The notes under the pieces: model-generated | Told to the model about the DNA's origin: nothing | The model's database searches: none | The model's input: only the letters and a program-made list of their open reading frames with translations | In this document: positions 16,136 through 22,000 of the stretch, piece after piece | How the letters are laid out: each line of letters starts with the position of its first letter | Position numbering within the stretch: the stretch's first letter is position 1 | Position numbers and translations under genes: made by a program | Virus record (IMG/VR): IMGVR_UViG_3300029787_000377 | Location: 1-22,000 of that record | Direction: 5' to 3' (one strand) | DNA from: a virus | Length of the DNA: 22,000 nt

Positions 16136-16477
16136 ATGAAAGAAGATATTGTCAGCCGACCTTGGGGAACATATAAAGTTCTAAAAAGAACTCCCAACAT
16201 GGTTGCCAAGATACTTAATGTCTATCCGGGACGATCAATGTCTGTTCAGTACCATAATTTTAGAGAAGAACACTGGAAAATTTTAAAAGGCCAAGCAACG
16301 GTCCTCATAAATGACCGGTGGTGGGAATTTATGCCCGGAGCTAGGGTTTATATCCCAAAAAGAACAATTCATTGTGTACGAGCCTCTGTGGGCCATATAA
16401 GGATATTCGAGGTTTGGAACGGTGAAAAACTAGATGAAAACGATATAATAAGGGTATATGATGATTATAATAGTTAG
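16136..16477 (+). CDS. mannose-6-phosphate isomerase-type cupin, 113 aa
   Basis: This single cupin domain resembles the C-terminal isomerase half of ManC/type II phosphomannose isomerases. Signs are RPWGTYKVL at the start, LNVYPGRSMSVQYHNFREEHW with metal-binding His/Glu residues, GQATVLINDR, RVYIPKRTIH and DIIRVYDDY at the end. It lacks the nucleotidyltransferase half, so it would convert fructose-6-phosphate to mannose-6-phosphate or act on another sugar phosphate. It starts two bases after the oxygenase stop and overlaps the next gene by 17 bases, forming a small sugar-metabolism pair. Confidence 0.85.
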   Translation: MKEDIVSRPWGTYKVLKRTPNMVAKILNVYPGRSMSVQYHNFREEHWKILKGQATVLINDRWWEFMPGARVYIPKRTIHCVRASVGHIRIFEVWNGEKLDENDIIRVYDDYNS

Positions 16478-16886
16478 TGGAGGGTTCGATCCAGTACATT
16501 CGGGCCATATTCAAATGTTTAAACAAGCAAATGACCTAGGAGCTGTATGGCTTTTGTTAAATACAGATAAATGGTTACAAAAAAAGAAGGGATATAATTT
16601 ATTATCGTATAAAGAAAGAGAAATAATTCTAACATCTAATAGATTTATTGATCGAGTTATTAAAGCAAAGGATAATAATGATACCGTGGTAAATAATTTA
16701 AAAGAATTTGTTAACAACGGTTTGGAGTTTGTGTTTGCTAATGGTGGAGATAGAATTCCAACGAATACTCCTGAAGTTTCTTTTTGTATGAAAAATGAAA
16801 TACCGATGATATTTAATCTTGGCGGAAATAAAGTTACCTCCTCTTCAAAAATTGCTCAAAAATTTCTTGAACAAGCTTGTAAATAG
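16461..16886 (+). CDS. cytidylyltransferase-like (HxGH) nucleotidyltransferase, 141 aa
   Basis: This is a HIGH-superfamily nucleotidyltransferase that would join a nucleotide to a phosphorylated sugar or alcohol. Visible features are GGFDPVHSGH with His13 and His16, an LLLNTDKW strand, ERIIL-like helix (REIILTSNRFID), FANGGDR and a late SSSKI loop. It lacks the kinase half found in HldE, and resembles stand-alone TagD or RfaE C-terminal enzymes; the substrate cannot be told. Tandem ATGs at 16458 and 16461 compete; 16461 gives 6-base spacing from AAGGG. It is the last plus-strand gene, with a promoter embedded at its end. Confidence 0.85.
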   Translation: MIIIVSGGFDPVHSGHIQMFKQANDLGAVWLLLNTDKWLQKKKGYNLLSYKEREIILTSNRFIDRVIKAKDNNDTVVNNLKEFVNNGLEFVFANGGDRIPTNTPEVSFCMKNEIPMIFNLGGNKVTSSSKIAQKFLEQACK

Positions 16887-16899: not shown

Positions 16900-16971
16900 A
16901 TGAAACAACGTCGTCAATATAATCCCTAGAGTTGGGAAGGTGTTTACCGTAAGACTCTAGGGATTTTTTTT
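16900..16971 (+). ncRNA. candidate short RNA (or terminated micro-leader)
   Basis: A promoter-terminator pair only about 70 bases apart would produce a roughly 71-base RNA ending in a 12-bp hairpin and a U-run, the usual shape of a phage or bacterial small RNA. It contains a nine-codon frame (16900-16929, MKQRRQYNP) with no ribosome-binding site. No target is known. Confidence 0.35.
16921..16971 (+). terminator. strong rho-independent terminator, plus strand
   Basis: AATCCCTAGAGT (16921-16932) and ACTCTAGGGATT (16954-16965) form a perfect 12-bp stem around a 21-base loop, directly followed by a run of eight T (16964-16971). It ends the long plus-strand transcript. On the minus strand the same stem lacks a T-run, but could still stabilise the 3' end of the opposing transcript. 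Confidence 0.9.
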
Positions 16972-16978
16972 GCCTCAA

Positions 16979-17059
16979 TTATTTTTCAGCACAAGCATAG
17001 CTATTGATTTCTAGACCAACAGATATTTCAGTGATTTTAGGTTGTGTCCACTTTGACAT
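16979..17059 (-). CDS. pqqA: PqqA-like pyrroloquinoline quinone precursor peptide, 26 aa
   Basis: PqqA is the peptide from which the redox cofactor PQQ is cut: PqqE cross-links a Glu and a Tyr side chain, and PqqD, B, F/G and C finish the product. This 26-residue peptide has the family plan: W4 and P7 near the N-terminus (KWTQPKITEI), then VGLEINSYACAEK with Glu17 and Tyr21 in the invariant E-x3-Y spacing. GGAG (17065-17068) stands 5 bases ahead of the ATG. It has its own promoter and a two-hairpin leader and lies downstream of the holin on the same strand. No other pqq gene is in the window, so host enzymes would be needed. An in-frame ATG at 17086 lacks a ribosome-binding site. Confidence 0.85.
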   Translation of the reverse strand: MSKWTQPKITEISVGLEINSYACAEK

Positions 17060-17070
17060 ATCAACTCCAT

Positions 17071-17117
17071 TGTTAAAGGTTAACATTAGTGCTGGTTGTC
17101 TAAGACCGCAGCCACTA
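17071..17117 (-). promoter_or_regulatory. two-hairpin 5' leader of pqqA
   Basis: Read on the minus strand, the leader starts with a stem of TAGT-GCTG against CAGC-ACTA (8 bp with one bulged G; 17109-17117 pairing with 17087-17094), then TGTTAA-CCT-TTAACA (17085-17071), a perfect 6-bp stem with a 3-base loop. The predicted transcript start falls at the foot of the first hairpin, and the ribosome-binding site lies 2 bases after the second. The arrangement could control mRNA stability or translation. Confidence 0.45.
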
Positions 17118-17154: not shown

Positions 17155-17553
17155 CTATTTTTTAAGATTGTCTCTAGCTACACCACGAGACTTCTCGAAT
17201 GACCTCATGCCACCAAGCCCCAATAAAGCAATAACTAAGGACATAAGTTCTTCTGTTTGTAAATCAGGCAAAGTGATGCCGGGAGCCCATATTGCACAGG
17301 CCCACTCGGCTAGGGGGAGGATAAAAAAATTAGTAAATAAACCAAGACAAGCCACCCACATGATGGCAGGTCTAGCTCCCGATACAAATATACTTGGATG
17401 CTTGGCTTGTTCGGTATTAGCCTTAGCTTGTTCTTGGGCAAGGGCTAATGTTTGTTTTCTAAGTTCACCATTAATCTTGGTTTTTAAATCTTTGTCTTCG
17501 ACAAACTTGTCTAATATTTTTCCGGCTACTCCGATAACACTATTTGCAATCAT
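17155..17553 (-). CDS. GTA-type 3-TM holin, 132 aa
   Basis: This matches the 'holin of 3 TMs, for gene-transfer release' type (Pfam GTA_holin_3TM), which permeabilises the inner membrane so lysis enzymes can act. A charged helical N-terminus (residues 1-50) is followed by the signature SIFVSGARPAIMWVACLGLF, membrane spans at about 60-90, and a third at about 104-117 (LMSLVIALLGLGGMRSFEK). The family is common in alphaproteobacterial phages and gene transfer agents. GGAG precedes the ATG, which overlaps the upstream gene by 4 bases. No endolysin is evident in the window. Confidence 0.85.
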   Translation of the reverse strand: MIANSVIGVAGKILDKFVEDKDLKTKINGELRKQTLALAQEQAKANTEQAKHPSIFVSGARPAIMWVACLGLFTNFFILPLAEWACAIWAPGITLPDLQTEELMSLVIALLGLGGMRSFEKSRGVARDNLKK

Positions 17554-17858
17554 ACGTTCTCTCCATTGAGTTTATCCATTATAACACTTTTTAACTGATC
17601 CATCAAAACATAAGCTTGAGTAAGATTTAAACTGCCTATAAAATAATCAATTAAGGGCCCATCATCATCCATTAATATTGTAATCATACCTGTTGCTTTT
17701 AAAGCATCAATATCTTTTTTAATTGTTTCTAAACTATCCAGCACCATTTTTTGATACTCTTCTTTAGGTGTTTGAGCTGCCAAATCTTTAGACATAATTT
17801 TAGGATTGGCATTTTTAAATAAATTTACAACCACGTCTTTATCTTCTTTATCAGTCAT
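17550..17858 (-). CDS. hypothetical protein, 102 aa
   Basis: This is a 102-residue acidic protein starting behind GGAGG and overlapping both neighbours (8 bases upstream, 4 bases downstream), so it is translated with the glycosyltransferase and holin genes. The centre is helical (EEYQKMVLDSLETIKKDIDALKA), and the C-terminal third (GPLIDYFIGSLNLTQAYVLMDQL) is amphipathic rather than a clear membrane span. No family is recognised; its place next to the holin makes a lysis-related role possible but unproven. Confidence 0.7.
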   Translation of the reverse strand: MTDKEDKDVVVNLFKNANPKIMSKDLAAQTPKEEYQKMVLDSLETIKKDIDALKATGMITILMDDDGPLIDYFIGSLNLTQAYVLMDQLKSVIMDKLNGENV

Positions 17859-18762
17859 TGTCCTCCATTAAATGTTTCCAAGGTAAACCATGAGCCATTT
17901 CTGTTACGGTCCATTGTGTAAAAGCTAAATTTTGTAGAAGCTGTTGACGATCTTCCATTTTTGGTTTCTCGATATCTTCTAAACTATGACTAGAGATTGG
18001 ATAAGTGAAATTAAGACTACTAGGTGTAATAACAGGGACACCAGCAAGCACACTATCCACCGATCCCCCACTTGTAAAGCTAACCGTTGCCCAACAATCT
18101 TTAAGGTCTTCTTCAATCTTTGTTGTATTTCCTTTAACCAATTCAACATTTTGTTGCTCCTTAATAAAATTTTCAAACTTTGATAAATCGTAACCAGAAA
18201 TTAATGGATGCATGCGAACCTTTATAAGACGTTTAGAATGTTTTTGACATTCAATTATATTATCTTGTAACCATTGTAGTATATCTACCTCTAAAGTAGA
18301 AGCATCTCCGGGAAGTTGCATAAGAAATAATATATGGTTACCGTCTTTTCTCCAGTCTTTAACCTGTATGTTTAAATCTGTTCTAAGAATACCCCAACGT
18401 TGTTTTTCACTTTTTTTATTATTAAACTCTCCCAAAGTATCCATGTAATGATTTTTTCCGAGTCTATAATATTTATGATCTTCTGTTATTGTTCTACCAA
18501 GTAAAGGTGCTTCAAATACTAAAAAATCTCCTTTATGCTTTTCTCGTATATCATTTTTTAAAACATGATGGGGATTACTTCTATTTTTCCATGAACCAAA
18601 CATAACAGCTACATCACACTGCATGTAATGAGGTGAGTTTGACAAGAAAACTAAATGGTCTGTTGTGGTTCTAATTCCGTGACAGAAAGCTGTTAGACAA
18701 TTTAAATGTGGATCTTGTACCGCCGTATTAATAAATACTCCAACTATTTTTTTATTCTTCAT
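17851..18762 (-). CDS. capsule-polysaccharide/glycosyltransferase-like protein, 303 aa
   Basis: This resembles GT-B fold sugar transferases of the capsule synthesis type. The C-terminal half shows RMHPLISGYDLSKFE, ATVSFTSGGSVDSVLAGVPVI and a final QWTVTEMAHGLPWKHL, where the Ser/Gly-rich turn and GVPVI belong to the nucleotide-sugar site of such enzymes. The N-terminal half is less conserved. The ATG at 18762 lies 8 bases behind AGGGA and overlaps the upstream gene by 11 bases. It may add sugars to phage particles or alter host surface sugars; the donor and acceptor are unknown. Confidence 0.65.
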   Translation of the reverse strand: MKNKKIVGVFINTAVQDPHLNCLTAFCHGIRTTTDHLVFLSNSPHYMQCDVAVMFGSWKNRSNPHHVLKNDIREKHKGDFLVFEAPLLGRTITEDHKYYRLGKNHYMDTLGEFNNKKSEKQRWGILRTDLNIQVKDWRKDGNHILFLMQLPGDASTLEVDILQWLQDNIIECQKHSKRLIKVRMHPLISGYDLSKFENFIKEQQNVELVKGNTTKIEEDLKDCWATVSFTSGGSVDSVLAGVPVITPSSLNFTYPISSHSLEDIEKPKMEDRQQLLQNLAFTQWTVTEMAHGLPWKHLMEDND

Positions 18763-20374
18763 CAAACAATTCCCTATACGTTATTGTATTATTTTTTTTA
18801 TTTAGACCATCGTTCCATAAAGCAGGTATCAAACCAGTACCATGAACATTAATTTGTAAATCAACTTCTTCATTTTGCATTAACTTTTCAAAGTCTTGAG
18901 CTTGAGCTAAAAGTTCTCCTGTCGTCCAAAAAGGTTTACTGTCTTCACCTACAGAAACTTTTAACCATTTCTTTGTACCGTCTTCTCCTAGTTCATTTTT
19001 ATCTTTAGGCGGCCCGTCATTACACGAATCAAATCCATAAAGATGAACCGTTCTAAAACCAAGAGTATGGACTAAACCAATCGACCTCATACCCGCACAG
19101 GTTCCTCCTGTAATTAACAATCTGTCTTTAAAATAATCCCAACCTTCAATAGCATTACAATAAGCATCCCACCCTATAACATTAGCTTTTTTATCAAGCA
19201 GATGAGTTACAACATCTGTATTAGACATAGTAGCTACAAAGTATTTAATACTAGGATGTGGTTCAGCTAATAATTCTTTTCTTATAAACCCGTGAGTAGA
19301 CTTTTCGTGAAAGGGTCTAGGATCTAAAACTGTACAGCCCCAAGGTTGTATACCATTTTCAAGAAGTATGTTGTGGCTATGTTTAACACATATAATTTTA
19401 ACACCATTGTTTTGTTCGAGCCTAATGTTTTCTAAATTATTTTTTAATGAAGGACCAGCGGAGACAATAGCAACTTCCTCGTTATTCCATTTACATTTTT
19501 TTAACATAGATGGAATTCGTTCTGAGTTTGTCATTATATTCATGCGAATCTCTTCCACAGGCATACAATCTTGCGGTTCTACAACAATTGGTTTTTTCTT
19601 GTCGTTAGGTCGTTTATGTTGAACCTCTGTATTTACATTAGCAGCTTGTTGTTTTTCCTGTTTAAACTTTAATAAACCTTTATTGTGATACAAATATTTT
19701 ACTAAAGGTGAACATTCAAAAGCATTAAGGTCAGCACAATAAGGAGATAAATTATATACTTTCATACCATGAGCTTGGTGTAATTTTAACAATCGAGTTA
19801 AGACAAAAGCATCATGCCACTCTTTATAGTTAAAGACTTCTCCAGTAGCCCACGTGCCATATAGGTCTGCAATGACAGCTTGATTTAAATTACTCATCTT
19901 TAACATAAAGAAACCAGCTTCTGCATAGTTGGTTGCTGTACGATCTAAGATACAAATATCTTGTCCCTCTGGTAGCCACTCTGATAATTCTTTGTGTGTA
20001 ATTTTATTATAGGTTACTGTGTCGGCATCTAACCAAATACCTATGTCACCCTTTGGCGGGTTCTTAACAAAAAAGTCATACTCAGTATAAACTTTATAAG
20101 CCCAACGACTAGCATCTGTTCGCCAGTTAGATTTGTTAGGATTGTCTTTATGAGTCTCCAAAAACTTGCATAAGCCATTATCATTATCGGTAAGGTCAAT
20201 GAACTCTACTCTTTTTTTATCATAGCTTTGTAGCCCTACTTCTGGCCAATCATTGTAATAAGCATAAAGTTTAATGTCTTCAGGCCAGTTTTTTATAAAA
20301 CTGTCTACACATTCTTTAGCATAAATATTCCAGTGATCTCCTCGAAAGGAAGTTACAACGTTAATTTTAGACAT
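18752..20374 (-). CDS. glycosyltransferase fused to a DUF115/MptE-like domain, 540 aa
   Basis: Two domains are visible. Residues 1 to about 235 form a GT-A type glycosyltransferase with WLDADT (Asp116, Asp118) as the metal-binding DxD motif. After a polar linker (about 236-290), residues 295-500 match the DUF115/6-hydroxymethylpterin pyrophosphokinase MptE-like fold, also found in Maf flagellin glycosylation proteins, with VAIVSAGPSLKNN, WGCTVLDPRPF, ITGGTCAGMRSIGL and LYGFDSC. The fusion suggests one protein that makes or transfers an unusual sugar, possibly a nonulosonic acid. It overlaps both neighbours by 11 and 22 bases. Confidence 0.8.
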   Translation of the reverse strand: MSKINVVTSFRGDHWNIYAKECVDSFIKNWPEDIKLYAYYNDWPEVGLQSYDKKRVEFIDLTDNDNGLCKFLETHKDNPNKSNWRTDASRWAYKVYTEYDFFVKNPPKGDIGIWLDADTVTYNKITHKELSEWLPEGQDICILDRTATNYAEAGFFMLKMSNLNQAVIADLYGTWATGEVFNYKEWHDAFVLTRLLKLHQAHGMKVYNLSPYCADLNAFECSPLVKYLYHNKGLLKFKQEKQQAANVNTEVQHKRPNDKKKPIVVEPQDCMPVEEIRMNIMTNSERIPSMLKKCKWNNEEVAIVSAGPSLKNNLENIRLEQNNGVKIICVKHSHNILLENGIQPWGCTVLDPRPFHEKSTHGFIRKELLAEPHPSIKYFVATMSNTDVVTHLLDKKANVIGWDAYCNAIEGWDYFKDRLLITGGTCAGMRSIGLVHTLGFRTVHLYGFDSCNDGPPKDKNELGEDGTKKWLKVSVGEDSKPFWTTGELLAQAQDFEKLMQNEEVDLQINVHGTGLIPALWNDGLNKKNNTITYRELFDEE

Positions 20375-21129
20375 GGTGCTCTACTCTTTGTTATAAGTGA
20401 ATCCATGTGAGTTTTTTCAAGATACCATTGCTTACTAAAATCACATTCTTCATACCCTCGTAACCAAGGGCCTCCTAATGAAAAATGCACAGCATTTGGT
20501 TGGTTTGTTTTGTATTCGGTTATATCAGGAACATAATTCCAAAATGGATTAATTTCTCCTACACTCTCTGGACCTCTAGTAAGCCATGAGAATTGATGTA
20601 GGTCCAAACCTTTCCATTTATTTACAGCTTCAACTGTTAGTCTTTTATTGTCTTCATGTTCCATATTAAAAGCCATAAGTGATGACCATAGTTTACAGTT
20701 ATACTTTGTTTGTATCTTGTTGTCCATCTTAAATTGTTGATCTGACTCATAATTAAAAGGAACAGACATAACCGGGTATCCATCATCTAGTTGGTCTACT
20801 AAGTTTTTAATATCGTCAAGCCATAAAAAATCACAATCACAAAAGATAGCCCAACCTTTTAAATTATTTCTTCTGGCAATCTCTGGAACTAAAAATCTAG
20901 TATGGCTAAACTCTGTAGAAAATGGTGCCTTATCTAACAGATCATAGTATTGATTGTGTTTATCAATCTTCCATTCTCTGTAGAATAATTTATGTTCTCT
21001 GAGCTCATTATGTTTTAAAGGAGTTACTGTGATAGGAATAGATGAACGTCTGATTAACGAATGCTCTGCAACATTGTAAGCATCGATTTCTCTAGCATCC
21101 CAGCCCATTAAAACGTGAATTGATTTCAT
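20353..21129 (-). CDS. DxD glycosyltransferase, 258 aa
   Basis: This is a GT-A type glycosyltransferase related in layout to family 8. Features are HVLMGWDAREIDAYNVAEHS at the N-terminus, FSHTRFLVPEIA, the FCDCDFLW DxD motif (Asp98, Asp100), LWSSLMAFN and a late VHFSLGGPW. It is first in the minus-strand sugar cluster and overlaps the next gene by 22 bases. A promoter begins at the end of the preceding gene, leaving almost no 5' leader and no ribosome-binding site, so the mRNA may be leaderless. Target sugar and acceptor are unknown. Confidence 0.8.
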   Translation of the reverse strand: MKSIHVLMGWDAREIDAYNVAEHSLIRRSSIPITVTPLKHNELREHKLFYREWKIDKHNQYYDLLDKAPFSTEFSHTRFLVPEIARRNNLKGWAIFCDCDFLWLDDIKNLVDQLDDGYPVMSVPFNYESDQQFKMDNKIQTKYNCKLWSSLMAFNMEHEDNKRLTVEAVNKWKGLDLHQFSWLTRGPESVGEINPFWNYVPDITEYKTNQPNAVHFSLGGPWLRGYEECDFSKQWYLEKTHMDSLITKSRAPCLKLTL

Positions 21130-21137
21130 AGTAAAGA

Positions 21138-21165
21138 AGTATATAGATGCCTATTATTTAGTCAA
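21138..21165 (-). promoter_or_regulatory. promoter ahead of the glycosyltransferase cluster, minus strand
   Basis: On the minus strand TTGACT (21165-21160) overlaps the stop of the large protein gene, and TATACT (21143-21138) follows 16 bases later. The start of transcription would be about 2 bases ahead of the ATG at 21129, implying a leaderless mRNA. Read-through from the large gene is also possible. Confidence 0.5.
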
Positions 21166-22000
21166 TAGGAAAAGCTTTTTTAAGTTCAGGATCTTCTCTA
21201 CCTTCGGTTTGTAGAGCATCAATACCTAGTCTTCCTCTTATCATTTTTCTTCGTACTGTAGCCGGATCAAGGTCAATAACCATATCATATTCCCCAAGTC
21301 TTCTAGAGTTCTGATTGTGTTCTGCAACGTCTTTTCTAACTTCATCTAATTGTTTTTGATATCGCTCTATTTTTCCTAAATCGTTATTTGCGACAGCACG
21401 TTCTAAATTAGTTAATGCCCTGCTTTGTCTTGCATAAAATTGGTCTCTTAGTTGAGCTGCTTTAAACTTTCCTGATTTTTGTAAATAATTATATTCTCTT
21501 GCTCTTGAAATCTCTACAGGACTAAATCCTAAAAATTGTAGAACTTGTGCTTGTGTGCTTATATTTTCTGGAACGACAATTTGCTCGCCGCTTTTAGTTT
21601 TATATCCTTGTGTTCCTAAATTACCTGATTTTATTATATTTTGAAATGGTTTTGGTAAAACACTGGCTACAGCCATGGGTATATCGTCATTACCTAGATA
21701 ATGTTTAGAATCAACAAACCCTCTTATAACACTAACAGCCGGTATACTTGCTTGATTAAGGCCTGTATCTCCAAAAACAGCATCGTTAAAAAATCCAGTG
21801 ATAGGGTGAGAACCTAGACCAACTCTTCGACCAATGTCAACACCAGCATAACGTAGAAAACCACGGGCCATGGCATCCGCCATTTCTGGGCTTGTAATAT
21901 CGGCCATTAATTTAAAGTATTCTTTTTCAATGTTTAAATTTCTTTTTGTAGCAAAGTTGTAAACTCCTTCATAAGTATCTAAACCATCTTCCATAAACGG
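21158..22000 (-). CDS. C-terminal part of a large PLxRFG-like internal virion protein, partial
   Basis: The frame is open to the right edge, so only the last 281 codons are here. The sequence resembles the C-terminus of very large phage polyvalent proteins (PLxRFG-type), thought to be injected with the DNA. The matching part runs from PKPFQNIIKSGNLGTQGYKTKSG through LGFSPVEISRAREYN, a helical stretch (LRDQFYARQSRALTNLERAV), and DPATVRRKMIRGR. An ATG at 21994 is not evidence of a start. The likeness is by eye; alternatives are a T7 gp16-like internal core protein. Confidence 0.6.
   Translation of the reverse strand, partial: PFMEDGLDTYEGVYNFATKRNLNIEKEYFKLMADITSPEMADAMARGFLRYAGVDIGRRVGLGSHPITGFFNDAVFGDTGLNQASIPAVSVIRGFVDSKHYLGNDDIPMAVASVLPKPFQNIIKSGNLGTQGYKTKSGEQIVVPENISTQAQVLQFLGFSPVEISRAREYNYLQKSGKFKAAQLRDQFYARQSRALTNLERAVANNDLGKIERYQKQLDEVRKDVAEHNQNSRRLGEYDMVIDLDPATVRRKMIRGRLGIDALQTEGREDPELKKAFPID

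Follow-up and report, generated by a model that had tools for sequence, protein, structure and literature searches.

We analyzed a 22,000-nucleotide stretch of viral DNA (hereafter the window; IMG/VR record IMGVR_UViG_3300029787_000377, positions 1 to 22,000) from a marine bacteriophage. A 26-codon frame on the minus strand, at 16979-17059, encodes the peptide MSKWTQPKITEISVGLEINSYACAEK and lies 95 nt from, and just 3' of, a holin gene. It is the last gene of the minus-strand cluster, which is taken to be late, and faces a convergent plus-strand cassette of ribonucleotide reductase, 2OG-Fe(II) oxygenase, cupin, and cytidylyltransferase-like genes. The features around the locus are as follows.

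16458..16886 (+): cytidylyltransferase-like protein, the convergent neighbor (PF01467, E=1.6e-7), which is context and not part of the PQQ function
16921..16972 (+): hairpin with a 13-bp stem plus a T8 run between the convergent gene sets, terminator of the plus-strand cassette and possibly also halting minus-strand transcripts after pqqA
16979..17059 (-): pqqA, 26-aa PQQ precursor peptide
17060..17075 (-): ribosome-binding region (AATGGAGTTGAT-ATG)
17155..17553 (-): holin directly upstream of pqqA (PF11351 GTA_holin_3TM, E=1.5e-11; phrog_3427 holin)
17550..21994 (-): rest of the minus-strand cluster, comprising a 102-aa protein, a 304-aa protein, a 540-aa MptE-like protein, a 258-aa protein, and the C-terminal part of a large protein

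Within this cluster, the 540-aa protein (18752-20374) contains a PF01973 MptE-like domain (E=6e-22) and is flanked by two proteins without a Pfam match. The hairpin had a folding energy of -23 kcal/mol (z=-4.1) on the plus strand and -20 kcal/mol (z=-3.8) on the minus strand, which lacks the T run. It was not found by a consensus terminator scan because its loop is too long.

To test whether the small frame is a genuine PqqA, we searched it with curated profiles. The peptide matched NCBIfam TIGR02107 (an equivalog model) at 37.5 bits against a cut-off of 20 (E=1.5e-9, model positions 1-21/21) and Pfam PF08042 at 33.9 bits against a cut-off of 21.1 (E=3e-8, positions 1-19/19). Searching the 22-kb record itself gave this single PqqA with E=3.4e-10, whereas 14 control genomes gave none, so chance is excluded. 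Trp4, Pro7, Glu17, and Tyr21 are present, and Glu17 and Tyr21 have the E-x3-Y spacing that PqqE cross-links (PMC5715301). The peptide shares with the bacterial PqqA family its length, the W-x2-P start, and the G-L-E-x3-Y core, and has the conserved C-terminal ACAE tail as in marine alphaproteobacterial PqqA. The upstream sequence ACCTTTAACAATGGAGTTGAT-ATG carries GGAG at ribosome-binding distance. The same GGAG occurs in most relatives, and an SD-like motif was found within 20 nt in 124 of 125 phage copies. No pqqB-E gene was recognized in the window, based on the ORF list and family searches of the genes around pqqA. These results support the proposal of an earlier note that the frame is a phage-encoded lone PqqA.

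Next, we examined whether the gene is conserved among related phages. The DNA polymerase encoded in the window is about 42% identical to that of pelagiphages HTVC103P/HTVC104P, and polymerase relatives, mostly at 69-74% identity, were found in IMG/VR. Every one whose contig reaches the holin (our contigs L205, L211, L212, L222, L225, L231, L233, L237, L248, L251, and the nearly identical L204) has pqqA directly 3' of the holin. The same arrangement was found in the holin relatives L003 and L004 and in a phage contig binned in a Flavobacteriaceae MAG (L311, PANU01000007.1). The latter belongs to this phage group and has the identical PqqA peptide, and its binning is probably contamination. In another contig, L002, the cytidylyltransferase neighbor is missing but pqqA remains. 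Notably, only 3 of 48 holin relatives with at least 1.5 kb on both sides carry pqqA, so the gene follows this phage lineage rather than holins in general. In the GenBank phage collection, megablast of the 12.4-21.1 kb region found nothing, and tblastn of two phage PqqA peptides against its 50,697 phages gave no hit at E<=10, so no near copy was seen in that collection.

The gene is kept by selection. Eleven distinct pqqA genes obtained without selecting on the peptide had a pN of 0.079 and a pS of 0.564, a ratio of about 0.14, with Trp, Pro, Gly, Leu, Glu, and Tyr invariant. In a scan that left Glu and Tyr free, 120 of 120 phage copies kept both residues. Moreover, two phage peptides are identical to solo PqqA peptides of bacteria, although their genes differ at 8-12 of 75 nt.

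We then investigated how widely PqqA occurs in phages. Well over a hundred related and unrelated phages carry the gene. Their neighborhoods fall into at least six kinds: holin; portal/GroES-like capsid block; exonuclease/helicase loader; NifU with endolysin; tail-assembly chaperone; and a weak terminase-small-subunit match. NifU-like Fe-S assembly genes lie near pqqA in eight marine phage contigs, in two different arrangements. As PqqE is an Fe-S enzyme, NifU might serve such enzymes, although this is speculation. A second phage type of PqqA, RFGFE[VI]TMY, is also widespread and is carried by very large viral contigs of 356 kb, 166 kb, and 148 kb. A Roseobacter-like pattern gave only one chance match, which lacked the Trp-Pro start. 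All 50 long viral records of the marine type tested (up to 60 kb) hold exactly one PqqA, and 0/50 have PqqE or a PF13360 PQQ-repeat protein, although most are fragments, so absence there is not proof for each phage. Interestingly, one 72-kb phage-like contig with pqqA (L542, IMGVR_UViG_3300025120_009955, 28000-44000, and L447) additionally encodes a PQQ methanol/ethanol-type dehydrogenase, a formate dehydrogenase alpha subunit, a CsgG-like curli protein, and a thioredoxin, suggesting an apparent methylotroph phage with two oxidation steps.

To identify candidate hosts, we scanned genomes for the same motif, which returned mainly marine Alphaproteobacteria. The ...SYACAEK type found in the window is the type of single-cell and metagenome-assembled genomes in an order that includes MED-G10 (HIMB59 clade by record title). 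In this order, 31/32 genomes have PqqA in 1-5 copies, usually several, with one in the pqq operon and others solo beside unrelated genes. More broadly, many marine alphaproteobacteria carry 2-5 pqqA copies, most of them solo, and one alphaproteobacterial MAG has three tandem, slightly different pqqA genes (contig L296:2096-2825). A full PqqE was found in 23 of 30 candidate host genomes, many of which are single-cell or metagenome assemblies that may be incomplete. A full-length PQQ alcohol dehydrogenase of the methanol/ethanol type was present in 20/32, with coordinates near pqqE where both were mapped. Solo pqqA acting in trans is therefore the hosts' own habit. However, the host assignment rests on peptide likeness only. 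Searching 32 genomes of the candidate order for the window's polymerase found mostly cellular PolA plus an unrelated phage contig without pqqA, and no close relative of this polymerase, so there is no direct host link.

Taken together, these findings suggest that phage pqqA is an auxiliary metabolic gene that supplies the consumed substrate of the host's PQQ pathway in trans, most likely to keep the infected cell's energy metabolism supplied. The Glu and Tyr side chains of PqqA are joined by PqqE/PqqD, and the product is trimmed and oxidized into PQQ by the other enzymes. Each PQQ molecule destroys one PqqA, whereas the enzymes are reused, so a phage that adds only PqqA could sustain PQQ supply with about 80 bases. 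Consistent with this, separate pqqA copies are natural and expressed in a methylotroph with five copies, three of them separate, and a cell-free extract converted added PqqA to PQQ (PMC9851590). Raising single pqq genes including pqqA was also reported to raise PQQ (PMC7936290). PqqA is not always the limiting step, however, as pqqB raised PQQ more than pqqA in the study quoted in PMC7936290. We consider substrate supply likely, although without expression or biochemical data the expression of the gene, its processing by host PqqD/PqqE, the benefit, and the host are all inferred. The link to late transcription in this phage is likewise an inference from gene order, and it cannot be general because some pqqA copies lie beside DNA-metabolism genes rather than late genes.

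Of the two roles proposed in the earlier note, substrate supply and a decoy for PqqD/PqqE, the former fits and the latter is unlikely. A pathway substrate expressed without the enzymes could in principle compete with host PqqA and deprive the cell, or superinfecting phages, of PQQ-dependent energy. Nevertheless, a working substrate is converted, not trapped, and a decoy should lose or alter the reactive residues in at least some lineages and has no reason to match host solo PqqA sequences exactly. It is also conceivable, but improbable, that the peptide feeds the host pathway for a benefit other than alcohol oxidation, with PQQ serving as an antioxidant or shared redox compound during infection. 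The same data would fit this reading. The infected cell's use of PQQ was not observed and no quinoprotein was found in the marine-type records. The dehydrogenase role is nonetheless simpler, given that most candidate host genomes encode a full PQQ alcohol dehydrogenase and one phage contig carries such an enzyme itself.

Repurposing of the peptide as a lysis or structural accessory unrelated to PQQ, such as an antiholin or capsid peptide, appears very doubtful. The gene does sit next to a holin here and next to portal/GroES-like genes in many other phages, but other copies have quite different neighbors, and 45 of the 48 holin relatives lack it. Furthermore, constraint falls on exactly the PqqA residues, and the peptide is too short and polar for a membrane protein. 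Short genes are easily carried along and hosts have scattered solo copies, yet a functionless captured host fragment or assembly chimera is the least likely reading. It is refuted for this locus by recurrence at the same place in many independently assembled contigs under purifying selection, and PqqA also recurs across unrelated phages.

A PqqA encoded by a phage was already reported for the Lake Baikal methylotroph phage VP_266, where it was proposed to support host PQQ (PMC7678222), and viral pqqA, pqqD, and pqqE are listed in a 2026 reservoir study (PMC13188868). VP_266 is a freshwater phage that also encodes methanol dehydrogenase, whereas here pqqA is alone, in marine phages with the alphaproteobacterial type of peptide. 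In contrast to the earlier note, which regarded such a gene as unusual, we found it to be widespread. What appears new is how widespread, solitary, and conserved it is; we found no report of lone pqqA as a widespread marine phage gene, although this is weak evidence because only open-licence papers were searched. The main text of a large ocean AMG survey (PMC11360552) does not mention PQQ.

Lone pqqA is probably one of the commoner metabolic genes of aquatic phages, overlooked because it is about 24-26 codons long. In this view, many unrelated phages of PQQ-making marine and freshwater bacteria carry only the consumed substrate of a ribosomal-peptide cofactor pathway, representing a substrate-supply class of auxiliary gene. 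PQQ-dependent alcohol and methanol dehydrogenases carry part of ocean one-carbon and alcohol oxidation. If many phages feed PQQ synthesis by supplying only its consumed peptide, gene callers and AMG catalogues have missed a common lever.
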